From contig NZ_VRZC01000015.1 of the NCBI RefSeq assembly GCF_016743215.1, positions 1 through 40,874 of the forward strand: a stretch of 40,874 nt of DNA, given 5' to 3'. A model generated the notes under the pieces. It worked only from the letters and a program-made list of their open reading frames with translations. It was not told where the DNA came from and made no database searches. The position numbers and the translations under genes are program-made. Position 1 is the stretch's first letter. Each line of letters begins with the position of its first letter. Below are positions 10,100 to 40,049 of the stretch, one piece after another. Origin of the DNA: Geminocystis sp. GBBB08 (GTDB lineage Bacteria > Cyanobacteriota > Cyanobacteriia > Cyanobacteriales > Cyanobacteriaceae).

Positions 10100-13000
10100 G
10101 TGTTTGATATGATTGATACTTCTAATTATTCTTTTTCACACAATCCAGAGGAAAACCAGACTCAATCTTTGGAGTTGCAAAGAAAATATTATTTTTGGCG
10201 ATGGTTTCTTTCTCTTTGCTTGTTATTTTTGGGGGGAGGGTTAAGTTATGGTTGGTATTTTTTGACTCAAAAGTTAATTCCTCTCATCGAAACACCCGTT
10301 AGTCATTATATTTCTCGCCCCGTTAAATTAGGTAAGATAGAAGCTGTTTCTTTCACGAAAATTAGGTTAGGTGAAACTCGCATTGATTCCACTGAAAATG
10401 AAAATGATTCTGTTATCGCAGAAGCCATAGAAATTAGTTTTAACCCTTTACAGTTATTAGGCAAAAATGTTGATTTAGGGATTTCTGTTATTAATAGTAG
10501 TGTTTATTTGCAACAAAATAAAGATGATAGCTGGATTAATATAAAATTAAACCCTAGTAATGAGCAACAAATTTTAAAATGGAATTTTAATGTCGATAAG
10601 ATTCAGCTTAAAAATAGTCAACTAATTGTTAAAAATAATCATCATTTAAAAGATTTACCCTCCTTTGTTACTCAACTAATTATTCCTTCCGCTAATATCA
10701 GTTTTCAAAATAATCAATCCTTCTTTCAACTTAAGGGTAATTTTCTTCAAGGAGGAGATATTAATATTACTGGTTTACATAACTTTAATCAAAATCAATG
10801 GTTATTAAAAATTAATAGTCAAGACTTAGCTATTAATACTCTTAATAATTTAATGATTCTTCCTATCGATGCTAATTCGGGAAAAGTTGACGGAAATGTG
10901 TCTTTAAATTTTTCTCATAATATTTTAGATAACATTCAAGGAGACGTTACCTTTAATCATGTTAATTTTAAATTGCCTAATTTACCAAATCAATTAACTG
11001 AAAGTCAAGGAAAAGTTACCTTTGATAATGAATTAGTCAAGTTAGAAAATATTAATACTAATTTAGGGTTAATTAATACTCAAGTTAATGGTGTTATTCA
11101 CAAGAATCAGCAGTTAAATATTCAAGCTAATACTACCAAGCCTATTGAGATAAAAAATGTATTTTCTTCCTTAAATTTAGACACTGATAATTTAGAGACA
11201 ATAGGAAAAGTTACTGGCAAAGTTAATCTACTAGGGGATATTCATAACCCGAAAATTTCGGCAAATATTGTTAACAGTGGAATCACACAATTTGAGAAAA
11301 TTCCTTTTAATAAAGTCACCACTAATTTAGATATTCATAACAATCAATTAATAATCAACAATGTTAGTTTAATTCCGACAATTGGAGGAGAAGTTACCGC
11401 CACAGGAAAAATCAATTTATTGCAAAAAAAAGATGATAGTTTTAACATTTCTTTGACGGGAAAAAATATAGACGGGAAAAAGTTAGTCTCTATTTATCAA
11501 CAAGAGTTACCTATTAATGTCGGTTTAATCTCAGGCAACTATAACTTATCAGGAAATTGGCAACAATTTAATCAAGCCAAGTTAACGGGTATTTCTACAG
11601 TGGAGTTAGCAGGAGGTAAAGCTAATATTGACAATTTAGAAGTCAATCACGACACATGGCGAGGAGAAGTGACATTGGCAGGAGTTAAGTTAACACAGTT
11701 ACCGATTCTTGATTGTCAAAAAATTGGTTGTAATGACTCATTCTTAAATGGTGAATTTCAGGCATCAGGTAAAAACGAGAAAATTGACGCAACCAGTCTT
11801 AATCTATTGGGAAATTTTGATGTTAATTTTAGCGGCGGAAAACTTAACTTAATTAATACTAAAATTAGTCAAGGTAATTGGCAGACATTAATAACCGCAG
11901 AAAATCTTCTTCTTTCTCAATTGCCTCTGGTTAAGTTAACTTCACTAGGGATTGACGGAGGAAAAGTTAGCACTAATTTAGACGTGAAAGGAAATTTAAC
12001 TAATAATGACAAGATTCAAATTCAAGGAAAAGGAAAACTAGATTTACCTGAAGGAAGAATTAACATTAATAACTTTACTTTAGCTAAAGATAATTTTATC
12101 GCCGAAACCAATACTGTGAATTTTTCTCTCCATAAGATAACAGAAAATTTACGAGGAGATGTTAGTGGCAAAGTAACAGCAAGAGGAAATATTAATAATC
12201 TCACAGCCGAAAAAATTAACCTTGATGGCGACTTGGTTTTTAGTCAAGGAATTAGTCTTATTAATCAACCAATTTCGGCGAATTTTTCTTGGAATGGCGA
12301 AAACTTAAGGTTAAATAAAGGCATGAGTGATGGTATTCAAGCAAAAGGAATTATTAATGTTGATATAAATACCAAGACAGTAAAAGATATTGACTTAGAT
12401 ATTGTTGCTAAGGAAATCGATTTACAAAATTTATCCTTACCTTCTTCTCTCGACATCCTTAACTATCAAGGAAAAGTTGACTTTCTAGGTAATTTGCAAG
12501 GGAAAATTTCACAACCACAATTAAAAGGTAAAGTCACAGTTAATAATTTTCAACTGGTTAACCTTGCTTTTTCTTCCTTACAAGGTAACATAACAGCAAA
12601 CCTCAACGAAGGTTTAAACTTAAAACTTAATGCCGTTAACTCTCACGAAAAATTTTATTTACAACTGGATAAAGAAAACCAACCTCAATTAATCGACTTA
12701 CAAATTAAAGAGACTCAAGTTAAAGCAATTAAAAATGATGAAATTTTAGCGATAAATGCCATCAATATTCCTTTAGATACAGTAACAAAAACATGGTTAA
12801 GTTATTTACCTAGCAACGTCAAAAAAATTGGAGGGAATCTTATCGCCGATGTAAGCCTTAACTTGAATAATTATGAATTGGTAACGGGAAATATCGTTAT
12901 AGATAAACCAAGTATCAATCATTTACAAGGAGACAAACTAACAACTCAACTTTCAGAAGAAAAAGGAGTTATTAAAATTGAAGACGGAAAATTAAGTCAT

Positions 13001-14926
13001 CAACAAAATGAATATCTTTTCGCTGGAGAATTACAACCTTTCGCAGAGAATCCGCAACTGAAGGCAAAAGTAGAAATCAAAGAAGGTGAGATACAAAATC
13101 TTTTAAGTAGTTGGCAAATTTTCGAGTTGAAAGATATACCTCAAGGATTTCAACCTCGTGAATATAGCAAAGCTAATGATTTATATTCCGTAAACTTTAA
13201 TAGTAATAGTCAAGAAAAATCTGTCTCTTCTTCTTCTCCCTTATCTAATAGTCAAGAAAAATCTGTCTCTTCTTCTCCTTCCTTATCTAATAGTCAAGAA
13301 AAATCTGTCTCTTCTTCTCCTTCCTTATCTAATAGTCAAGAAAAATCTGTTTCTTCTCCTTCCTTATCTAATAGTCAAGAAAAATCTGTTTCTTCTCCTT
13401 CCTTATCTAATAGTCAAGAAAAATCTGTCTCTTCTCCTTCTCCCTTATCTAATAGTCAAGAAAAATCTGTCTCTTCTTCTTCTCCCTTATCTAATAGTCA
13501 AGAAAAAATCTTACCTTCTTCTCCTTCCTTATCTAATAGTCAAGAAAAAACCTTACCTTCTTCTCCTTCCTTATCTAATAGTCAAGAAAAATCTGTCTCT
13601 TCTCCTTCCTTATCTAATAGTCAGGCAAACCCTCTAGTTTCTATTCAGGGAAATGATGATTCTTTATTAGATACTTTGACTTTTTTCCGCAAAATTGAAG
13701 CACAATTAAAGCAAGTCGAGACTAATCGTCTTAATGCTAGTTTACCGAGTTTGGAAAGTTTACAAGGAAAATTAACAGGCGGTATAAATATTAATCTTTC
13801 TTTTCAACAAGGCATTAAGGCTGAATTTGATTTTCGTGGATATAATTGGCTATGGGGAAAATACCGAGGAGATTCGTTACAGGCAACTGGTAGTTATGAT
13901 AATGGTTTGCTGACTTTATTACCTGTAAAAATACAAAGTGATAATAGCATTTTATCTTTAACTGGAACTTTTAAATCAGAGAGAATTTCTGGAGAGGTAA
14001 TGCTGTCTAATTTTTCTATTTCTCAACTTAAAAAGGTAGCAAATTTTCCTGAAATTTTAAATATTGATGGAGTTATAAATGCCAGTATTGCTGTTAGTGG
14101 TAGTGAAGAAAAACCTTTAGCTAAAGGCAATATTGAATTAACTGACTCTAGTATAAATGGCACTAAAATTGATAAAACTACTGCTAGTTTTGGCTTTAGA
14201 AACTCTCGAATTGATTTTTTAGCTAATAGTAACTTAACTGAAAATACTCAACCTTTAACTTTAATTGGTAGTTTACCTTTTCAATTATTTTCTAACTCTC
14301 TTTTACCAGAAAACAACAACTTTTTACTAAAGCTAAATTTAACCCAAGATGGCTTTGCTTTATTAGATATTCTCAGTAATAATCAACTTAATTGGCTTAA
14401 GGGTGAGGGTGATATTAATTTAGATATTAATGGTAAATATTCCCAAATTAGAAACCAAATTACTGACATTTATACTCAAGGAATTGCTACTTTTAAAAAT
14501 GGGGTTATTGGCCGCAAAATTCTTCTTGATAATCCTATTACTAATATTAATGGTCAAGTGTTCTTTAATTTTGATCAATTAACTATTCCCCATTTAACGG
14601 GCAATTTTAGTGGAGGAAATATTGCGATTGCTGGTGGTTTACCTTTAATAAACAACAGTTTTTCTCATGATTCTTTGAATATTAATGTCGATGATTTAGC
14701 TTTAAATGTCAATAGTTTATATCAAGGTAGCGCTCACGGTTTAATTAATGTTTCTAATTCGGCGATCGCCCCTAAAATTGGTGGTAAAATTAAATTATAT
14801 AATGGGGAAATTAAAGTAGGAGAAAAATCAGATAATTATACTGAAAATATCAAAAAAAATAATTTTATTAACACAAATTTTAATAACTTGCAACTAATTT
14901 TAGATAAAAATTTTTCAATTAAATAA
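10100..14926 (+). CDS. tamB: TamB/DUF490 translocation-assembly protein, main part (ends at premature stop)
   Basis: Very long protein of the AsmA/TamB family that bridges inner and outer membrane and helps lipid transport or outer-membrane protein assembly. A single N-terminal membrane helix (FLSLCLLFLGGGLSYGWYFL, about residues 36-55) anchors it. The remaining ~1550 residues are monotonous beta-strand repeats (LNIQGKGKLDLPEG, SGKVTARGNINN) forming the groove-like beta-taco. A serine-rich tandem repeat interrupts it at residues ~1035-1175. The frame stops at TAA 14924-14926, yet the conserved DUF490 C-terminus continues in the same frame to 15700, so the gene is interrupted. The predicted start is GTG 10100; ATG 10109 is equally possible. 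Divergent from the porin gene. Confidence 0.85.
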   Translation: MFDMIDTSNYSFSHNPEENQTQSLELQRKYYFWRWFLSLCLLFLGGGLSYGWYFLTQKLIPLIETPVSHYISRPVKLGKIEAVSFTKIRLGETRIDSTENENDSVIAEAIEISFNPLQLLGKNVDLGISVINSSVYLQQNKDDSWINIKLNPSNEQQILKWNFNVDKIQLKNSQLIVKNNHHLKDLPSFVTQLIIPSANISFQNNQSFFQLKGNFLQGGDINITGLHNFNQNQWLLKINSQDLAINTLNNLMILPIDANSGKVDGNVSLNFSHNILDNIQGDVTFNHVNFKLPNLPNQLTESQGKVTFDNELVKLENINTNLGLINTQVNGVIHKNQQLNIQANTTKPIEIKNVFSSLNLDTDNLETIGKVTGKVNLLGDIHNPKISANIVNSGITQFEKIPFNKVTTNLDIHNNQLIINNVSLIPTIGGEVTATGKINLLQKKDDSFNISLTGKNIDGKKLVSIYQQELPINVGLISGNYNLSGNWQQFNQAKLTGISTVELAGGKANIDNLEVNHDTWRGEVTLAGVKLTQLPILDCQKIGCNDSFLNGEFQASGKNEKIDATSLNLLGNFDVNFSGGKLNLINTKISQGNWQTLITAENLLLSQLPLVKLTSLGIDGGKVSTNLDVKGNLTNNDKIQIQGKGKLDLPEGRININNFTLAKDNFIAETNTVNFSLHKITENLRGDVSGKVTARGNINNLTAEKINLDGDLVFSQGISLINQPISANFSWNGENLRLNKGMSDGIQAKGIINVDINTKTVKDIDLDIVAKEIDLQNLSLPSSLDILNYQGKVDFLGNLQGKISQPQLKGKVTVNNFQLVNLAFSSLQGNITANLNEGLNLKLNAVNSHEKFYLQLDKENQPQLIDLQIKETQVKAIKNDEILAINAINIPLDTVTKTWLSYLPSNVKKIGGNLIADVSLNLNNYELVTGNIVIDKPSINHLQGDKLTTQLSEEKGVIKIEDGKLSHQQNEYLFAGELQPFAENPQLKAKVEIKEGEIQNLLSSWQIFELKDIPQGFQPREYSKANDLYSVNFNSNSQEKSVSSSSPLSNSQEKSVSSSPSLSNSQEKSVSSSPSLSNSQEKSVSSPSLSNSQEKSVSSPSLSNSQEKSVSSPSPLSNSQEKSVSSSSPLSNSQEKILPSSPSLSNSQEKTLPSSPSLSNSQEKSVSSPSLSNSQANPLVSIQGNDDSLLDTLTFFRKIEAQLKQVETNRLNASLPSLESLQGKLTGGININLSFQQGIKAEFDFRGYNWLWGKYRGDSLQATGSYDNGLLTLLPVKIQSDNSILSLTGTFKSERISGEVMLSNFSISQLKKVANFPEILNIDGVINASIAVSGSEEKPLAKGNIELTDSSINGTKIDKTTASFGFRNSRIDFLANSNLTENTQPLTLIGSLPFQLFSNSLLPENNNFLLKLNLTQDGFALLDILSNNQLNWLKGEGDINLDINGKYSQIRNQITDIYTQGIATFKNGVIGRKILLDNPITNINGQVFFNFDQLTIPHLTGNFSGGNIAIAGGLPLINNSFSHDSLNINVDDLALNVNSLYQGSAHGLINVSNSAIAPKIGGKIKLYNGEIKVGEKSDNYTENIKKNNFINTNFNNLQLILDKNFSIK
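13202..13626 (+). repeat. 39/42-bp tandem repeat inside tamB
   Basis: Ten complete units and one partial unit of SNSQEKSVSSxPSL (13 or 14 codons; one-codon length differences arise in the serine run). Two units vary as ILPSSPSL and TLPSSPSL. The DNA copies are near-identical (AATAGTCAAGAAAAATCTGT recurs), which implies recent slippage or unequal crossover. The encoded segment is a low-complexity Ser-rich linker of about 140 residues. Confidence 0.9.
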
Positions 14927-24378: not shown

Positions 24379-24498
24379 TGACTAATATCTGTTTTTGGTT
24401 AAATGAAACATACAATTATATCTTAACAAAAAATTAGATCTCCATTGGCTAAGGTCTTCAATACTTTTGTTTACTTCTAATATATAACATAAAATTTT

Positions 24499-24540
24499 GT
24501 ATATTACGATACATAAAAATATTAATCTTATCTTTAGTAT
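24499..24540 (+). promoter_or_regulatory. Canonical NtcA-activated promoter of urtA
   Basis: GTA (24499-24501), 8 bases, TAC (24510-24512), then exactly 22 bases, then TAGTAT (24535-24540), matching the TAN3T -10 box. This is the full class-II NtcA promoter GTA-N8-TAC-N22-TAN3T, so urtA should be switched on under nitrogen limitation. The -10 box ends 37 bases before the urtA ATG. Confidence 0.85.
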
Positions 24541-24577
24541 TAGTAAGTTTAAAACAAAAATCAGTAAACAATAGATT

Positions 24578-25906
24578 ATGTCCAGACTAGGAAGAAGAAA
24601 ATTTCTCTTATACGGTTCAGCCACATTAGGTACAAGTTTACTATTAAAAGCCTGTGGAAACTCTCCTCCACCTGCTGATAATACGGCAACAAATACTCCC
24701 ACAGAAACTCCCACTCCCACAGAAACTCCGGCTCCTTCCGGTGATAAGATTAAAGTAGGTATTTTACACTCCCTGAGCGGTACAATGGCTATTAGTGAAA
24801 CCAGTGTTGTGGATGCTGAAAAATTAGCCATTAAAGAAATTAATGCAGCGGGAGGGGTGTTAGGGAAACAAATTGAGCCTGTAGTCGAAGATGGTGCCTC
24901 AGATTGGCCTACTTTTACCGAAAAAGCGACTAAACTAATAGATCAAGATAAAGTAGCTACGGTTTTTGGATGTTGGACTTCAGCTAGTCGTAAAGCGGTA
25001 TTACCAGTCTTTGAATCAAAAAATCATATGCTGTGGTATCCTGTACAATACGAAGGTCAAGAATGTTCTAAAAATATATTTTACACGGGTGCGGCACCAA
25101 ATCAACAAATTGAACCAGCAGTGGATTGGTTGTTACAGAATAAAGGGAAAGAATTTTTCTTAGTTGGTTCAGATTATGTATTTCCACGCACTGCTAATAC
25201 GATTATTAAAGCTCAATTAGCGGCAAAAGGTGGTAAAGTGGTTGGAGAAGATTATTTACCATTAGGTAGTACAGAAGTTACGCCCATTATTGCTAAAATT
25301 AAAGCGGCATTACCAAATGGGGGGGTAATATTTAACAGTCTTAATGGTGATAGTAACGTAGCTTTCTTCAAACAAATTCAAGCGGCTGGTTTAACTCCAG
25401 ATAAATTTCCTGTTATGTCAGTAAGTATCGCCGAAGAAGAAGTGCAACAAATTGGGGTAGAATATCTCAAAGGACATTATGCCGCTTGGAATTATTTTCA
25501 AACCGTAGAAAGTCCAGAAAATAAGAAGTTTGTGGATGCTTTTAAGGCAGAATATGGTCAAGATAGAGTAGTAAATGATCCGATGGAAGCGGCTTATACT
25601 ATGGTATATTTATGGAAACAGGCTGTGGAAAAAGCAGGTGGTGCGGATGACATTGAAAAGGTGAGAATGGCGGCGATAGGGCAAGAATTTGCAGCCCCCC
25701 ATGGGCCTGTTAAAATGTTACCTAATCATCATATTTCAAAAACTGTGCGTATTGGACAAATTAGAGATGATGGTTTATTCGATATAGTTTACGCTACTAA
25801 TGGGCCTGTGGATGCTATTCCTTGGAATCAATTTGTGGCAGAAACCAAAGGTTATTCTTGTGATTGGACAGATCCTGCTAAGGGTGGTAAATTTAAAATG
25901 AGTTAA
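24578..25906 (+). CDS. urtA: Urea ABC transporter substrate-binding protein UrtA
   Basis: Binds urea in the periplasm and delivers it to the UrtBC-DE importer, supplying nitrogen. The N-terminus carries RR (residues 6-7), a hydrophobic stretch and a lipobox LLKAC with C26, so it is a membrane-tethered lipoprotein, possibly Tat-exported. A Pro/Thr-rich linker (residues 28-55) follows, then a type-I periplasmic binding fold ([50 protein letters not shown]). At 442 residues it is full length. The NtcA promoter upstream shows nitrogen control. No urtB-E genes follow; as in some unicellular cyanobacteria, urtA is separate from the rest. Confidence 0.96.
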
Positions 25907-28809: not shown

Positions 28810-31800
28810 CTAAATTCGATTAGCTAACATTAAAGCGGCTTGTTTCCATTTACCCATTTTTCTAAGTAAATTAGCGGCTTTGAGTTTATTTCCGGCTAAC
28901 TGCCACGCTTCGACAGCATTATCCCATTTACTTTCACCTTGTTGTTCACAAGTATAGGCAATTTTGTCCCATTGAGATATTTTACGCCAACATTCTTCAG
29001 CTAATGACCAGTATAATCCTTGTTCATAACAAAGGGCAGCTTTAATAATGTTGTCTTTAACATCACTTAATAACCAAGTTTGTGCGGCTTTTTGCCATTG
29101 TTTTTGTTGTTGATAGGCAATGGCTACCATATCATATCGAGACAAATTATGCCAACAATCAGCATTTTTCTGCCATAATTGAGCATTTTGATAAGCTAAG
29201 GCGGCTTTTTCCCACTCACAAATCAATTCCCATGCTTGGGCGGCTTTTTCCCATTTAGATTGTTTTTCACAAATTAAAGCAACTCTTTGCCAATTTTGTA
29301 TTTGTCGCCAACAGTTTTCAGCTTCTGAGTAGAGTTTTATCTTTTCATAAATTTCTCCTGCTTGTTGATAATTATTAAGAAGAATGTAAGCGAAGGCGGC
29401 TTTATCTAATTGGTTTTGTTTTTCACAGGTAAAAGCAACTTTTTCCCAGTCTTCAAGTTGTCGCCAAAGGTTTTCTGCTAAATCCCAAAATTCTCCTTGT
29501 TGATAACAAACAGCAGCTTTATCTAACTCAGGAATTTGTAACCAAATTAGTGCAGCTTTTTGCCACTGTTGTTGGGTTTGCCAGATATGGGCGGCGGTTT
29601 CCCATTTGTATTGTTTTTCAGCCATGATAGCGGCTTTTTCCCAGTTACCCATAAGTAACCAACACTCTTCGGCTTTTTGCCAATTTTCAATTTTTTCGTA
29701 ACAGTTACCGGCTTTTTCGACTTTATCTATTTTTAACCAAGAAGAAGCGGCTTTTTCCCATGTCTCTTGTTTTTCGTAAACTTCAGCTAATTTTTGCCAA
29801 TTTTCTAATTTACGCCAACACTCTTCGGCTTTTTGCCAATTTTCAACTTTTTCATAACAGTTACCGGCTTTTTCGACTTTATCTATTTTTAACCAAGAAG
29901 AAGCGGCTTTTTCCCATGTCTGTTGTTTTTCCCACAACTGAGAAGCCAATTCCCACTTATTTTGTTTTTCGTAAACTTCAGCTAATTTTTGCCAGTTTTT
30001 TAATTTATGCCAACATTCTTCAGTTTTTTGCCAATTTTCTGCATTTTCGTAACAAATAGCCGCCGAATCTAATCGATTAATTTTTTCCCATAGGGTAGCT
30101 GCTTTTTGCCATTGATTTAATTCTTGCCAAAGTTTAGCAGAATCTGGCCATTTTTGCTGTTTTTCGCAGAGGATAGCAACTTTTTGCCAATTTTCTAATT
30201 TACGCCAACAGTTTTCAGCTTCTTGCCATGCTTCGACTTTTTCATAACACCAAGCAGCTTTCTCTTCTGGTTTAACTTTGTGCCAAGTTTGTGCGGCTTC
30301 TAACCATTTTTCTTGTCTTTCACACATAATGGCAACGTTAACCCATTGTTGTAATTGTCGCCAACAATCTTCTGCTTTTTGCCAATTTTGTGCTAATTCA
30401 TAGTCAAGGGAAGCATTAGATAATTTTCCTAACTGTAACCAAATATCAGCAGACTTTTGCCAGTGATGTTGTTTTTGACAAGCTATAGCGACTTTTTCCC
30501 AGTCTTGAAGTTTACGCCAACAAAATTCTGCTAATTGCCATTCTTCTACTTTTTCATAACACTCACCGGCTTGAGAATATGCTTCTAATTTTTGCCATGC
30601 TTTTCCAGCAGAGGAAAATTGCTGTAATTTTTGCCAAAGATTAGCGGCAGTTTCATAATCTTGCTGTTGATAACAACAAAAGGCGACTTCTTGCCAATTT
30701 TTTAATTCTCGCCATAATTTTTCGGCTAAACTCCATAATTTTCCTTGAGAGTAACATTTCGCTGCAGATTTTTTTTCGTCTATTTTTAACCATGCTTTCC
30801 CTGCTTTTTCCCATTCTCCTGTTTTTTGATAAATAAGGGCAAGTCTTTCCCAATTTTTTAAGTTTAGCCAACATTCTTCTGCTTTTGACCAAAGTTTTCC
30901 TTTTTCATAACAAAAAGCTGCTTTTTTTATCTCTCTCGTCATTTCCCATGCGTAACCTGCTTTTTGCCAATTTTCTAACTGTTGCCAAATTTGTGCGGCG
31001 GATTGCCATTTATGTTGAGATTCACAACAAGTAGCGATATTGGGTAGATGATTAAGTTGACGCCAACAAGTTTCTGCTTCTTGCCAATACATTCCTCGTT
31101 GGTAACTTTCAGCAGCTTGAGGAAGTTGGGGAATTTTTAAATAATTTTCAGCGGCTTTTTGCCATTGCTGTAATTTTTGCCAAATTTTTGCTGATTCTTG
31201 CCATTTTTCTTGTGCCTGACAACATAAGGCGATATTTTCCCAATTATTTAATTTTCGCCAACAATTTTCGGCTTTTTCCCATTGAGAATTTTTTTGATAA
31301 CAAATAGCGGCATTTTCCCATTTTTCAATTTTTTCCCATAGGGTAGCCGCTTTTTCCCATTGGTTTTCTTCCTCCCTAATTAGGGCAGTTTTTTCCCATG
31401 CTTTTTGTTTTTCCCACATCAAACGACAACGAGATAAATCACCAGTTTGACGATAAATTTTTTCTGCCATTAAGTAAGATTTTTCTGCCGCTTCATCTTT
31501 GCCTTGTTTTTTATATTCATCTCCGGCTTTTTCCCATTCTTGATTAAGTTTTAAACATTGTAAATAATTTTCTGTATCTTCAGCTTGTTGATAACAAATA
31601 CTAGCTAAATCATAATGATGATGTTGTTGAAAATATCTTGCTTTTTCCTGCCACTGTAAAGGAGTCAAATTTCGCCATTTTTTTAACCATAAATTATCGT
31701 CTATTTCCTGCCAACAGTTAACTGCTTTTTGCCATTTTTCTAAAATATTCCATAAATCTCCGGCTTTTCCCCAGTTACCTTCACTTTCAGCAATGTAAGG

Positions 31801-33792
31801 TTGAATAAGTTTTGCTTTTTGATAATTTTTTATCTGCCAATAAGATTCATAAGCCTGTTTCCATGCACCTTGATGATGATAAAATTGAGCGATAGTGTTA
31901 ATATTCTCATCAAGAGAAAGGGTAAAAAAGCCTTCTAAAATTTCAAGATTACCTTTAGTTAAGTAATCTTCTAAATTAGGATAGTTTTCTCCAATATTTA
32001 AACTTGTTTCATAGCAGTAAATTTTTTCTTTGACACATCCTAAACAAAGATATAAGTATTTTTTTAATAAATCCGTTGTCAGACTATGATATTTGATATT
32101 GTTAAAATAGCTAAAAAAATTCCAAAGGATAATTTCATTAAATTTTAAACCATCAATTTCGGTAATAGTTAGAATGCGACTATTAGAAACTTCTTGACGG
32201 GCTTTAAAAATATTGAGTAACTTTTCCTTTTCTTGACTATTAGTAACAATAATACATTTATCTAAACCAAAATTTATGCCTAAATTCAATAACTTTGATT
32301 CGGGAGAAATAATCGAAAAGCAGTTAGTATTTTGTGGAAGAATACGATTATTTTTGAGAATATCTTTACTTTTTGATTTTTTCTCTAACTCTAAATTTAA
32401 TAACCCGTGACTAAAATTGATTAAGTTTTGATTAGCAATTAAGTTAAAGGTTAATTTTCCTTCATGGATAGTTGAGTTATTATCAGAGGAGACAATTTTT
32501 TGAATTTTTTTGACAAAAGTTGCACAGTCATAAATAGATTTTTGACTATCGTAGGTAAAACAAAAATTATTGATTAAATTTTTCTCGTCAGATTTTTGGG
32601 TTAAAGTGAGAATTAATTGTAAAGCTATGTCATTAAATTTATGGGCGTTATCACAATAAACTTGAGCATAAATTCCGCTAAAATTATGAGGTATATTTTC
32701 TAAAATATAGTTACTTAAATCTATTTCATCCCAGTAGTTATATTGAGTTAACCATTGTTGATATTTAACCGCTAATTGATAAATTTGTTTAGGGTTAATT
32801 TCTGGAGATAAAAAAGTATATTGTTGAATTTGTTGTTGATAATTTTCTAAGGAAATTAAATTATAAGTATTCTTGGTATAACTACCATTTCCTTTGATAA
32901 GATAATAAATTTCGTGCCATAAATGAGATGATTCAATATCTTCTATTTCTTGATTAGCTAAAAACTTAAACTTAAAGTCAGTATAAGTAATTTCTTTACT
33001 TCTGAGAAATCTGTTATCTTGTAAAAGATGATTATCTTGAGCAAATTTACGAATAAAATAAATAAAGTCACGGATAATGAAGTTATCAATCTTTTCTCCT
33101 TTCAATAATGGTTGAGATGGATACTGAGTTTGATATTTATTATTTAGAGTATGAGTAAGATAAAGGATTTTTCCTTCTGGATTAGTTTTACTGGCTTGTA
33201 TAGCTTTGATTAAAGATACTGTGGTTTTTCCAGTGTTGTTAAATCCGTGCAAAAGTAAAGGTAAAGGTTTTTTGATGTTATCAATTTCTTCTGAGGAGAG
33301 TAAAAGTTTTTGAGGATTAGTAACGAAAATATTTAAACTTTGTAAACTCTGACAAAAAAAGTCGTTAAACTGGATGTCAAAATCTTCAGGTTGTATTTTT
33401 AAATTTTCTCTGCTTCTAAAGTTATGGATAATTTCGGTATTGATTAAATTATGTTCTCGATTAATATTAATATCAATATCAATTATCTTGACTGAAAGTC
33501 CTTCTTTAAAGACTATAATTCTTTTAAGTTTACTTTTATCAAAAATATTGAGAAATTTAACTATATTTTCTTGATGGTGAAGAATATGAGTAATAAATAT
33601 CTCTAACTTATAATTATAGTTAAGACGATAAATAACTTTTTCTTGTTTTCTTTTATCAATTTCTGAAGTTAATAAAGGATGATGAATAATGGTTTCTAAA
33701 ATTGTTAAAATTACCTGTTGATTAGAAGTCTTAAGCCCATGGATTGTTTTGCTTAAACTATTATTACTACTAAGAGAATATTGATGGTTCAT
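28810..33792 (-). CDS. Giant protein: degenerate UvrD-like helicase domain plus about 76 tryptophan-rich helical repeats
   Basis: 1660 residues in two parts. Residues ~1-600 follow a superfamily-1 (UvrD-like) layout: Walker A GFNNTGKT (183-190) is intact. Motif II reads VYCDNAHKF (378-386, DEAQ expected), motif III TYDSQKSIYD (413-422), motif V EIDGLKFNEIILW (545-557), and motif VI LCLGCVKEKIY (582-592, arginine expected). Nucleotide binding is plausible, unwinding doubtful. Residues 644-1660 are about 76 helical units of consensus WQKAEECWRKLEN-type. Units 10-69 (residues 786-1565) are all exactly 13 residues. Units cycle in sets of four or five. The cadence recalls TRANK1/IFT-like solenoids. 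No signal peptide. It is a stand-alone gene; function unknown, with scaffold or conflict-system roles possible. Confidence 0.8.
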   Translation of the reverse strand: MNHQYSLSSNNSLSKTIHGLKTSNQQVILTILETIIHHPLLTSEIDKRKQEKVIYRLNYNYKLEIFITHILHHQENIVKFLNIFDKSKLKRIIVFKEGLSVKIIDIDININREHNLINTEIIHNFRSRENLKIQPEDFDIQFNDFFCQSLQSLNIFVTNPQKLLLSSEEIDNIKKPLPLLLHGFNNTGKTTVSLIKAIQASKTNPEGKILYLTHTLNNKYQTQYPSQPLLKGEKIDNFIIRDFIYFIRKFAQDNHLLQDNRFLRSKEITYTDFKFKFLANQEIEDIESSHLWHEIYYLIKGNGSYTKNTYNLISLENYQQQIQQYTFLSPEINPKQIYQLAVKYQQWLTQYNYWDEIDLSNYILENIPHNFSGIYAQVYCDNAHKFNDIALQLILTLTQKSDEKNLINNFCFTYDSQKSIYDCATFVKKIQKIVSSDNNSTIHEGKLTFNLIANQNLINFSHGLLNLELEKKSKSKDILKNNRILPQNTNCFSIISPESKLLNLGINFGLDKCIIVTNSQEKEKLLNIFKARQEVSNSRILTITEIDGLKFNEIILWNFFSYFNNIKYHSLTTDLLKKYLYLCLGCVKEKIYCYETSLNIGENYPNLEDYLTKGNLEILEGFFTLSLDENINTIAQFYHHQGAWKQAYESYWQIKNYQKAKLIQPYIAESEGNWGKAGDLWNILEKWQKAVNCWQEIDDNLWLKKWRNLTPLQWQEKARYFQQHHHYDLASICYQQAEDTENYLQCLKLNQEWEKAGDEYKKQGKDEAAEKSYLMAEKIYRQTGDLSRCRLMWEKQKAWEKTALIREEENQWEKAATLWEKIEKWENAAICYQKNSQWEKAENCWRKLNNWENIALCCQAQEKWQESAKIWQKLQQWQKAAENYLKIPQLPQAAESYQRGMYWQEAETCWRQLNHLPNIATCCESQHKWQSAAQIWQQLENWQKAGYAWEMTREIKKAAFCYEKGKLWSKAEECWLNLKNWERLALIYQKTGEWEKAGKAWLKIDEKKSAAKCYSQGKLWSLAEKLWRELKNWQEVAFCCYQQQDYETAANLWQKLQQFSSAGKAWQKLEAYSQAGECYEKVEEWQLAEFCWRKLQDWEKVAIACQKQHHWQKSADIWLQLGKLSNASLDYELAQNWQKAEDCWRQLQQWVNVAIMCERQEKWLEAAQTWHKVKPEEKAAWCYEKVEAWQEAENCWRKLENWQKVAILCEKQQKWPDSAKLWQELNQWQKAATLWEKINRLDSAAICYENAENWQKTEECWHKLKNWQKLAEVYEKQNKWELASQLWEKQQTWEKAASSWLKIDKVEKAGNCYEKVENWQKAEECWRKLENWQKLAEVYEKQETWEKAASSWLKIDKVEKAGNCYEKIENWQKAEECWLLMGNWEKAAIMAEKQYKWETAAHIWQTQQQWQKAALIWLQIPELDKAAVCYQQGEFWDLAENLWRQLEDWEKVAFTCEKQNQLDKAAFAYILLNNYQQAGEIYEKIKLYSEAENCWRQIQNWQRVALICEKQSKWEKAAQAWELICEWEKAALAYQNAQLWQKNADCWHNLSRYDMVAIAYQQQKQWQKAAQTWLLSDVKDNIIKAALCYEQGLYWSLAEECWRKISQWDKIAYTCEQQGESKWDNAVEAWQLAGNKLKAANLLRKMGKWKQAALMLANRI
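29098..31437 (-). repeat. Array of sixty 39-bp coding repeats (13-residue units)
   Basis: Sixty consecutive units without any length change encode residues 786-1565. Position 1 is usually W (sometimes L, Y, V or I), 4 and 5 are A/A or A/E, 8 is W, C or Y, and 11-13 end in polar residues often with N, G, D or P. Unit types repeat in order: xWQKAExCWRKL, WQKVAxxCEKQ, WxxAAxxWxxL, optional WxKAAxxWxKI, xxxAAxCYEK. That gives higher-order periods of 52 or 65 residues (156 or 195 bp). Confidence 0.95.
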
Positions 33793-36840: not shown

Positions 36841-38364
36841 ATGAGTGTTATTTATTGCCTCAACCCCCATTGTGAAGATCCCAAAAATGATACGAGAACA
36901 AAAAAGTGTCGGAGTTGTCAGTCAAATCTGGTGCTTCATAGACGCTATGTGGCTATCAAAAAAATTGGTAGGGGGGGGTTTGGGACAACTTATTTAGCCG
37001 TGGACATGGTTCAAAAAAATCGTTATTGTGTGGTAAAACAATTAGAACTTGGTACGGCTAATCCTGAATCTCACCGCACAGCTTTAGATTTATTTGCGAG
37101 GGAAGCGAAAACTCTTGCTAAGTTAGATCATGCCCAAATACCAAAACTCTTAGATTATTTTGAAGAAAATGATCAATTTTATCTAATTCAAGATTTTATC
37201 TTAGGGAAAGATTTAGAAAAGGAAATTAAAAAAGGTAGTGTTTATCAGGAAAGTTCGGCGAAGCAGTTTCTTCGTAATATATTACCCGTTCTAAAATATA
37301 TTCACTCTCAGAAAGTTATCCATAGAGATATAAAACCAGGAAATATTTTACGGGAAAAGGAAACGAACAAATTATTTTTAATTGACTTTGGGGCTGTAAA
37401 AGAACAGGCTAACACTCAGTTAATGAATCAAAACCCTCAAAGTGCCTTTACTAAAATATCTGTAGGTACAATGGGATTTGCACCGCCAGAGCAGTTAGCC
37501 ATGCGTCCAGTATATTCTAGTGATATTTACGCTTTAGCGGCTACTTGCATTTTTTTATTGACGGGAAAAGCACCAAAAGATTTATGTGATAACACAACGG
37601 GGGAATTAGAATGGGAAAAATATACTAATGTCAGTGCTAATTTTGCGAAAGTTTTGAATAAAATGCTGGAGTTGGATGTTCGTAAACGTTATGTCTCAGC
37701 GGATGATGTGATCAAAGCTTTAGATTTAGTGCCTTATGAACAAGAATTAGCAGGAAGCATGGTTAATTTAAGTACCAGTAAAGAATCAAATGACGATGAT
37801 GAAGATATTACTATTGCGAGTTCAACTTCTCAAAATTTGGCAGACGCCATTAGAAAAAGAAAGGAAAAGTTAAGCGGTAATACTCCATCCTCAAGAAGTC
37901 AACTTAATGTTTCTTCCTCAAGTCAATCTAAATTACAATTAACTCCAGAAACAATAACTCAAGATTATCGCAAGGGAAACCGTAATTTTTCTCAACAGAT
38001 TTTAAGCGAATTAGATTTAGAAGGTTTAAAATTGTCAGGGGCAAGTTTTTCTCAAAGTAAACTAATTGGGGTAAATCTACAAAAAGCGAATCTTTATCGA
38101 ACTAATTATTATAATGCTAATCTAGCCCAAGCAAATCTTAAAGAAGCTAATTTACAAAGAGCGGAATTATATAAAGCTAATTTGAAAAATGCCGATTTAC
38201 AAGGTGCAGATTTAACGGGGGCGAATCTTAATAGTGCTATTTTAAAAGATGCTAATTTAGCCGGAGCAATTCTCAAGGATGCAAAAGTCGATGATGAACA
38301 ACTTAAAACGGCTAAAACTAATTGGCGCACAGTTTTTCCTGATGGTAAAAGAAGATGGTGGTAA
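36841..38364 (+). CDS. Ser/Thr protein kinase with zinc-ribbon N-terminus and pentapeptide repeats (copy A)
   Basis: 507-residue Hanks-type kinase. The N-terminus carries four cysteines (C6, C11, C23, C26; CLNPHC ... KCRSC), a likely zinc ribbon. The kinase domain has glycine loop GRGGFGTTY (43-51), lysine K66 in VVKQL, catalytic HRDIKPGNIL (161-170), DFG 182-184 in IDFGAVK, and APPEQ, so it should be active. After a Ser-rich linker, residues ~385-480 are pentapeptide repeats (ANLYR, ANLAQ, ANLKE, ANLQR, ADLQG, ADLTG, ANLNS). The end NWRTVFPDGKRRWW is shared with the sister gene. The architecture matches cyanobacterial SpkB-like kinases. Strong ribosome site GAAAGGAAAG before ATG 36841. No adjacent phosphatase. 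Confidence 0.93.
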   Translation: MSVIYCLNPHCEDPKNDTRTKKCRSCQSNLVLHRRYVAIKKIGRGGFGTTYLAVDMVQKNRYCVVKQLELGTANPESHRTALDLFAREAKTLAKLDHAQIPKLLDYFEENDQFYLIQDFILGKDLEKEIKKGSVYQESSAKQFLRNILPVLKYIHSQKVIHRDIKPGNILREKETNKLFLIDFGAVKEQANTQLMNQNPQSAFTKISVGTMGFAPPEQLAMRPVYSSDIYALAATCIFLLTGKAPKDLCDNTTGELEWEKYTNVSANFAKVLNKMLELDVRKRYVSADDVIKALDLVPYEQELAGSMVNLSTSKESNDDDEDITIASSTSQNLADAIRKRKEKLSGNTPSSRSQLNVSSSSQSKLQLTPETITQDYRKGNRNFSQQILSELDLEGLKLSGASFSQSKLIGVNLQKANLYRTNYYNANLAQANLKEANLQRAELYKANLKNADLQGADLTGANLNSAILKDANLAGAILKDAKVDDEQLKTAKTNWRTVFPDGKRRWW

Positions 38365-38519: not shown

Positions 38520-40049
38520 ATGATTATTAGTTACTGTGTTAACCCTAATTGTTCTGAACCGAAAAATCACCCTAAATTAAAGAAGTGTAATAATTGTGGC
38601 TCTAGTTTAATTTTAAATAATCGCTATCGAGTGATCAAAATGTTAGGTAAAGGTGGTTTTGGGGCAACTTTTGTGGGTGTTGATTTAACAGTCGTGGGTG
38701 ATCCTTTGTGTGTAGTGAAACAATTACGTCCTCTGACAGATGATCCTCAAGCATTTAAAACTGCGGTTAGTTTATTTGAGAGGGAAGCCAAAACTTTAGG
38801 TAAAATTAATCATCCTCAAATACCAAAGTTGATGGATTATTTTACAGATCAAGAACAATTTTATCTGATTCAAGAATTGATTAACGGTCAAAATTTACAG
38901 CGAGAAGTGAAAACTCAGGGAGTTTATGGAGAAATTGCTTTAAGAAGGTTTTTAGAGGAAATTTCCCCTATTCTTAAATATCTTCATTCAGAAAAAGTTA
39001 TTCATCGAGATATTAAACCGGCTAATATTTTACGCCAGAAAAAGGATGGTAAATTAGTATTAATAGATTTTGGAGCGGTAAAAGATCAAGTAAATACTCA
39101 ATTAGCTAAAACAATGGGAAACACAGCTTTAACAAAGTTTTCTGTGGGTACAATGGGTTATGCTCCCCCTGAGCAGTTAGCTATGCGTCCGGTATATTCT
39201 AGTGATATTTATGCTTTAGGAGCAACTTGTGTTTATCTAGTAACGGGTAAATCTCCGAAGAATTTTAATATTGATCCTGATACAGGGCAGTTACTTTGGC
39301 AACAAGATGTTAATATTAGTAGTGGTTTAGTAAAGGTTATTCAAAAAATGTTAGCCCAAGATACCCGTCAACGTTATAAAACTATGGATGAGTTAATTGA
39401 AGTTCTTAATATCCAACCTTTTCAACAAAGTTTAAGCCAAAATATTACCAGTATTCAAACTCCTAAAGAAATTAAACTTAGTGATATTCAAGGAGATTCT
39501 ACTGTTACTGACATAAACAATACTCAATTAACTAATACCTTTTCAGCTACAGAAAAAATCCAAAAAGCTATTCAACAAAGACGAGAAAATAAACCGAAAA
39601 ATATTTCGTTAAAATGGGATGAAGATAAATTTTTAACTGCTTTTAATAATGGGAAAAAAGATTTTAGTGATCAGGATTTACAAGGTTTAAATTTAGAAAG
39701 AAGTAAATTAAATAAATGTATTTTTCGTTATGCTCAATTACAAAGAATTATTTTTACAGAAGCTAATTTATCTCAGGCTAATTTTTATGGTGCAGATTTA
39801 AGTAATGCTAATTTTAATAATGCTAATCTTACTCAAACTTATTTTTCCAAAAGTAATTTAGAAAATGCCGATTTTAAAGGTGCAAATTTGAGTAGTGCTG
39901 ATTTTACCAATGCAAATTTAACTAATACTAATTTATGTGGTGCTAATCTCAAAAATGCTAAAATTAATCAACAACAATTAAAAGATGCAAAGGTAAATTG
40001 GACTACTACTTTTCCTGATGGTAGTCGTCGTTGGTGGAAGGTATTTTAA
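38520..40049 (+). CDS. Ser/Thr protein kinase with zinc-ribbon N-terminus and pentapeptide repeats (copy B)
   Basis: 509-residue paralogue of the preceding gene with the same plan: four N-terminal cysteines at identical positions (CVNPNC ... KCNNC), active kinase motifs (GKGGFGATF, VVKQL, HRDIKPANIL, IDFGAVK, APPEQLAMRPVYSSDIYALG), pentapeptide repeats near residues 390-485 (ANLSQ, ADLSN, ANLTQ, ADFKG, ANLSS, ANLTN), and the same NWTTTFPDGSRRWW tail. The kinase domains are close; linkers differ completely. The two genes are tandem, 155 bases apart, pointing to an old duplication. Different linkers suggest separate substrates or partners. Confidence 0.93.
   Translation: MIISYCVNPNCSEPKNHPKLKKCNNCGSSLILNNRYRVIKMLGKGGFGATFVGVDLTVVGDPLCVVKQLRPLTDDPQAFKTAVSLFEREAKTLGKINHPQIPKLMDYFTDQEQFYLIQELINGQNLQREVKTQGVYGEIALRRFLEEISPILKYLHSEKVIHRDIKPANILRQKKDGKLVLIDFGAVKDQVNTQLAKTMGNTALTKFSVGTMGYAPPEQLAMRPVYSSDIYALGATCVYLVTGKSPKNFNIDPDTGQLLWQQDVNISSGLVKVIQKMLAQDTRQRYKTMDELIEVLNIQPFQQSLSQNITSIQTPKEIKLSDIQGDSTVTDINNTQLTNTFSATEKIQKAIQQRRENKPKNISLKWDEDKFLTAFNNGKKDFSDQDLQGLNLERSKLNKCIFRYAQLQRIIFTEANLSQANFYGADLSNANFNNANLTQTYFSKSNLENADFKGANLSSADFTNANLTNTNLCGANLKNAKINQQQLKDAKVNWTTTFPDGSRRWWKVF

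Follow-up and report, generated by a model that had tools for sequence, protein, structure and literature searches.

An array of 60 exact 13-residue units behind a catalytically eroded UvrD/Rep-type helicase fold in a cyanobacterial protein

The window analysed here is the whole 40,874-nucleotide stretch of contig NZ_VRZC01000015.1 of Geminocystis sp. GBBB08 (assembly GCF_016743215.1). On its minus strand, an open reading frame at 28810..33792 begins with ATG and encodes a protein of 1660 residues, all of whose features given below lie on that strand. Residues 1-110 (33463..33792) form what is probably a degenerate RelE/ParE-like domain, and residues 151-640 (31873..33342) a predicted UvrD/Rep-type SF1A helicase fold that is catalytically eroded. 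Less regular helices at residues 632-785 (31438..31899), located by profile parse and AlphaFold2, run into an array of 60 exact 13-residue units, each modelled as one helix, at residues 786-1565 (29098..31437). The protein ends with further units, spaced at 16, 13, 13, 15 and 13 residues, and a C-terminal cap (residues 1566-1660; 28813..29097). It had no match in NCBIfam. The gene family to which it belongs nevertheless has a member in each of the 15 genomes sampled from the host's cyanobacterial family, and the window genome itself has a second one, of the paralogous group B, which is split by contig ends (C49); the N-terminus of this paralogue probably lies on contig C152.

The periodicity of the array is strict. 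As the initial annotation had described, residues 786-1565 are filled by 60 units of 13 residues without a single indel, and the consensus that it gave agrees with our counts: position 1 is Trp in 42 of 60 units, position 4 is Ala in 41, position 5 is Ala, Glu or Gly in 57 and position 8 is Trp, Tyr or Cys in 58. The autocorrelation that it had suggested bears this out, with identities of 0.22, 0.23, 0.20, 0.27 and 0.26 at lags of 13, 26, 39, 52 and 65 residues, compared with 0.08 expected and with a maximum of 0.12 over all lags up to 79 in 500 shuffled sequences. No lag-13 signal was found in the N-terminal 643 residues. Parsed with a profile over its whole length, the protein yields 69 units between residues 727 and 1648, with a longest exact run of 62, and a broader profile places 75 between 631 and 1648. 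The super-periods of four or five units that had been noted are also real: successive blocks start 5, 5, 9, 4, 4, 5, 5, 4, 5 and 4 units apart, and at the DNA level Tandem Repeats Finder (TRF) reports periods of 156 and 195 nucleotides, equivalent to 52 and 65 residues. The youngest duplication in the array, at 29674..29999, comprises about two copies of a 156-nucleotide block (52 residues, four units) with 82% matches.

AlphaFold2 was run on residues 641-1660 with an alignment of 20 close repeat proteins. The resulting model, with a mean pLDDT of 87.8, contains 77 helices, close to the total of about 76 units estimated previously, and the starts of 61 consecutive helices are spaced at exactly 13 residues, from model residue 146 (residue 786 of the protein) to model residue 926. 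Each unit is predicted to form a helix of about ten residues (positions 1-10) followed by a three-residue turn (positions 11-13), and a pair of units forms a hairpin of 26 residues that can be superposed on the 34-residue hairpin of a tetratricopeptide repeat (TPR). The pTM of the model is only 0.35, as expected of a long flexible rod, and the overall shape of the superhelix is not settled by it. When compared by VIA with the consensus TPR structure 8chy, 15 units lie on 7.4 repeats (251 TPR residues) with Z 12.8 and rmsd 8.4 over 195, although Z values up to about 13 are common for helical repeats; locally, 108 residues match 2fo7 with an rmsd of 3.4 Å. In terms of the model, the array is an α-solenoid of a TPR-like kind in which the helices are shortened, with hairpins of 26 residues in place of 34. 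The initial annotation had correctly set it apart from standard TPRs, given that 13 residues correspond to one helix and that ordinary 34-residue TPR pairs are not seen, but had overlooked how TPR-like the arrangement of its hairpins is.

What the array, as modelled, appears to share with TPRs is the antiparallel packing of two helices into a superhelix. It lacks a TPR helix-A signature and any equivalent of Gly8 or Pro32. The consensus of TPR helix B has the spacing Y17-A20-Y24-A27, and the unit spacing W1-A4-W8-L11 matches this helix-B half; every helix here is B-like. The likeness to intraflagellar transport (IFT) solenoids proposed earlier is also supported. IFT144 gives the best profile match among PDB sequences (E 2.6e-15), and the top Foldseek ranks for the array are held by IFT-A chains, clathrin and Ski3. 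IFT144, one of the WD40-plus-TPR proteins of the IFT-A complex, has WD40 propellers and irregular helices, and like the window protein it has an α-solenoid in which some consecutive helices are spaced at 13 residues; in the stretch covered by the search, however, its longest exact run is four units (residues 861-912), compared with three at most in shuffled sequences and with 62 in a row in the window protein. Moreover, the N-terminal β-propeller typical of IFT and coatomer proteins is absent from the window protein, which has instead a probable RelE-like domain and a P-loop α/β fold. The clathrin heavy-chain repeat (PF00637) resembles the array in its short zigzag helices, and the whole protein scores 35.3 against a Pfam cut-off of 29.6; but this is a module of about 140 residues, no stretch of the array passes by itself, only 44 of the 143 profile positions are matched, and neither a propeller nor the clathrin leg architecture is present.

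The components of the protein, a TPR-like α-solenoid and a UvrD/Rep fold, are thus of known kinds. What is unusual is the unit length, the regularity and size of the array, and its combination with an eroded helicase. TRANK1, a eukaryotic UvrD-like helicase, has a helicase-like P-loop domain beside TPR-like helical repeats and ankyrin repeats. The initial annotation had allowed that the unit might belong to a repeat family that already has a name, but a literature search for a named 13-residue α-solenoid or repeat family found none. A 2024 review of α-solenoids treats ANK, ARM, TAL, HEAT, PPR, PUF, Sel1 and TPR units, and the unit lengths found there are all at least 30 residues (PMC11514114). 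The searches that we ran yielded no named function for the gene family.

The N-terminal half of the protein, overlooked by the initial annotation, is an eroded UvrD/Rep helicase. Neither Pfam, run on the head alone, nor a phmmer search of the head against the PDB gives a match, and its identity as a helicase is established only through its relatives, an alignment profile and its fold. Relatives from other families of the order clearly match UvrD-helicase, the alignment profile of the head matches PcrA (E 2.8e-11), and the AlphaFold2 model of the head (pLDDT 86) superposes on Rep (1uaa) with a VIA Z of 20.9 over 398 residues and an rmsd of 4.9, the fold covering residues 150-617. According to VIA and the PcrA profile, both RecA-like domains of the SF1A topology are present. 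Walker A is kept, as the P-loop GFNNTGKTT (residues 183-191). Unlike UvrD, Rep and PcrA, however, the window protein has lost motifs II, III, IV and VI, and carries a long appended solenoid. In place of Walker B DExx it has DNAH (within DNAHKF), in place of motif III GDxxQ it has YDSQK, and in place of NFR (IV) and TRAR (VI) it has NLI and LGCV.

This pattern extends across the family. In a motif table of 26 relatives (nine of group A, to which the window protein belongs, 12 of group B, two of group C and three of an outgroup), the P-loop Gly and Lys, GK[TS], are invariant in all 26. The Walker B Glu is missing from 20 of the 21 group A and B proteins, the exception being L043 of group B, and the Gln of motif III, the Arg of motif IV and the Arg of motif VI are missing from all 21. 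The five proteins of group C and the outgroup keep DE[VI]QD, GDxxQ, NFR and TR[AT]R. In UvrD and Rep, the Walker B Glu, the motif III Gln, the motif IV Arg and the motif VI Args are needed for hydrolysis and its coupling. Judged by its motifs, the retained P-loop together with the lost hydrolysis residues suggests that the head is a nucleotide-binding pseudo-enzyme. Ahead of it, the model of residues 1-110 has a β-α-α-β-β-β order of elements that fits the RelE/ParE fold, and distant relatives with the same architecture match YoeB_toxin weakly (E 0.001-0.0024, below the Pfam cut-off, as are all YoeB and HigB matches in such relatives); this segment is probably a degenerate RelE-like domain.

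How did such a protein arise? Groups A and B are each well supported in the tree (100/100 and 98/97), but support for their union as one clade is only 73/76, so that one loss of the motifs or two are both possible. Relatives with an intact helicase have from none to about 40 units, whereas the eroded groups A and B have about 40 to 107. Motif loss and array growth coincide in one or two clades only, and the link between them may be coincidence. Counted with one common profile, exact runs reach 62 units in the window protein, 94 in L041, 41 in one group B protein and 16-24 in group C and L053. Confinement of 13-residue arrays to the host's family is ruled out by three deep-branching cyanobacterial relatives (L143, L145 and L139), which keep the P-loop, DEAQ, GDTQQ and NYR motifs and have unbroken runs of 17-18 exact units. 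The architecture of helicase plus 13-residue helices is therefore older than the host's family, and the window lineage is its extreme, with a dead head. Other intact relatives have 34-residue TPRs or few units instead. The units of L143, L145 and L139, which follow a UvrD-type helicase, are of a different, Ala/Gly-rich flavour, and in two of these proteins the signal at lag 26 or 52 equals or exceeds that at lag 13. Beyond these genomes, a single-protein back-translated scan of genome contigs gave one locus in a metagenome-assembled genome (L072), the only finds on the plasmids searched were two proteins with a UvrD domain, from Crinalium and Euhalothece, and no relative was found among the viral contigs and phages searched.

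Between species, the arrays of group A differ only by blocks totalling 52 or 104 residues, down to 45% identity; for pairs that are further apart, the aligner splits the difference into 13+39 or 13+91. In group B the array shows a single 8-residue insertion, and in group C one 66-residue and one 39-residue difference, whereas in the heads of the same pairs indels of 1-11 residues are numerous. In the comparison with the nearest orthologue, the only pair for which dS is not near saturation, dN/dS by the Nei-Gojobori method comes to 0.16 over the array and 0.22 over the head. The absence of sub-unit indels in group A and the low dN/dS favour one half of an earlier proposal, that the strict unit length reflects strong structural selection. 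The other half, recent expansion, holds only locally and in whole blocks, as seen in the TRF duplication above and in L041, where a 234-nucleotide unit (78 residues) is present in 4.5 copies at 99% (L041:5773-6823) and a 156-nucleotide unit (52 residues) in 3.2 copies at 96% (L041:4449-4951). Such near-identical copies in L041 imply that repeat growth is still going on. All of these recent changes comprise an even number of helices, as would suit a hairpin of two helices as the mechanical unit, although with few independent events this is only suggestive. The older five-unit blocks are odd, implying that a given type of helix must lie on one side of the ribbon in some places and on the other side elsewhere. 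A group A remnant with two in-frame TAA codons (L065; G011:C1:1142568-1143488) is found in a genome in which the long paralogue has decayed and the group B gene is intact.

Could this simply be an ordinary TPR protein, its 13-residue cadence a statistical feature of degenerate 34-residue repeats? Pfam TPR_2 scores 33.1 bits, over its cut-off, the packing is like that of consensus TPRs, and true 34-residue TPRs do follow the helicase in some relatives (L055, L056, L133 and L136, with lag-34 identities of 0.26-0.34). No single TPR stretch of the window protein passes by itself, however, and we reject the idea, as very improbable, on the grounds that identity at lag 34 is 0.04 compared with 0.215 at lag 13 and that the model helices recur every 13 residues. 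It is also improbable that the protein is still active, as a helicase or ATPase whose motifs are unusual and for which the array would serve as a partner-docking arm. The fold is intact, the P-loop is invariant, and the motifs are complete in members of group C and the outgroup, but the residues that are missing from the window protein and its group are those of Walker B and motifs III, IV and VI described above.

The residues that vary between units bear on a further proposal. In 68 units aligned across six species, identity between orthologous units is 59-83% at the buried positions 1, 4, 5, 7, 8 and 11, and only 28-47% at the exposed positions 2, 3, 6, 10 and 12. What makes each helix individual is thus the set of packing residues that are buried, rather than a code on its exposed side. 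A long, regular array with one unit per position, tethered to a helicase-derived head, might be expected to bind nucleic acid with one helix or helix pair per base, and PPR and OPR proteins are also arrays of α-hairpins (PMC8635915). The divergence of the exposed residues is the opposite of what a conserved code would show, however, and the array has a net charge of 0 over 1020 residues and, apart from alternating Lys and Glu, no unit positions that would make up a basic face, making such a role quite improbable. Slightly less improbable is an immune or stress sensor, in which the P-loop head would be a switch and the solenoid a ligand-sensing arm, as in STAND proteins or Schlafens. In structure, the head is similar to the Schlafen and Gabija GajB helicases, relatives with an intact helicase score with profiles of GajB, and the N-terminus is probably RelE-like; on the other hand, the window protein has no PADLOC match, the family occurs at scattered loci in every one of the 15 genomes without conserved defence neighbours, and dN/dS is well below 1.

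The conservation of buried positions, together with the strict register, favours a structural role, as a long scaffold, spacer or spring. The best overall explanation, which we consider probable but far from certain, is that the protein is a TPR-like solenoid of about 76 helices, one per 13 residues, with such a role, behind an eroded P-loop head of UvrD/Rep type. Its ancestor would have been an active protein with a UvrD helicase and short helices, of a type still found in other cyanobacteria; the head would then have lost its catalytic motifs while keeping the P-loop, and the array would have been amplified to its present length. The head may bind nucleotide, or a partner, without hydrolysis-driven unwinding. 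By analogy, the long flexible superhelix could act as a scaffold, spacer or spring on which proteins dock, and would be neither a motor nor a sequence-reading binder of nucleic acid. No conserved operon partner was found around the relatives, the conserved neighbours being limited to PsbP-Maf, which flank the gene in the window and in close relatives, and a kinase gene beside three group B genes.

A bolder formulation, which we put forward tentatively and think less probable, is that these proteins represent an unnamed class of α-solenoid whose unit is a single 13-residue helix of TPR helix-B type. An SF1A helicase would have become the nucleotide-gated head of an elastic superhelix of record length, with helices that are quasi-equivalent rather than of A and B types, and super-blocks of five units would allow a given type of helix on either face. 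The array offers a test of whether α-solenoids need A/B helix identity. The series from intact helicases with none to about 40 helices to dead ones with about 40 to 107 apparently captures an enzyme becoming a scaffold as its array grows, and so regular an array of short hairpins is a natural, near-ideal repeat protein that could be used in studies of folding, elasticity and design.

Finally, several other features of the window were observed. Within an open reading frame on the plus strand (10100-14926; 1608 residues, GTG start), ten tandem copies of a 42-nucleotide unit with 92% matches occupy 13204-13623; the 14-residue unit that they encode looks Ser-rich. Two adjacent plus-strand genes (36841-38364 and 38520-40049) encode proteins of about 508 residues that read like Ser/Thr protein kinases, each 46-48% identical to the orthologues of the other. 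Kinase-like genes of a similar type are found immediately upstream of L050, L051 and L069, all three of group B. The plus-strand gene at 24578-25906, which overlaps a minus-strand open reading frame at 24382-24831, has a strong match to Peripla_BP_5 (E 1e-168) and probably encodes the substrate-binding protein of a urea/amide-type ABC transporter.
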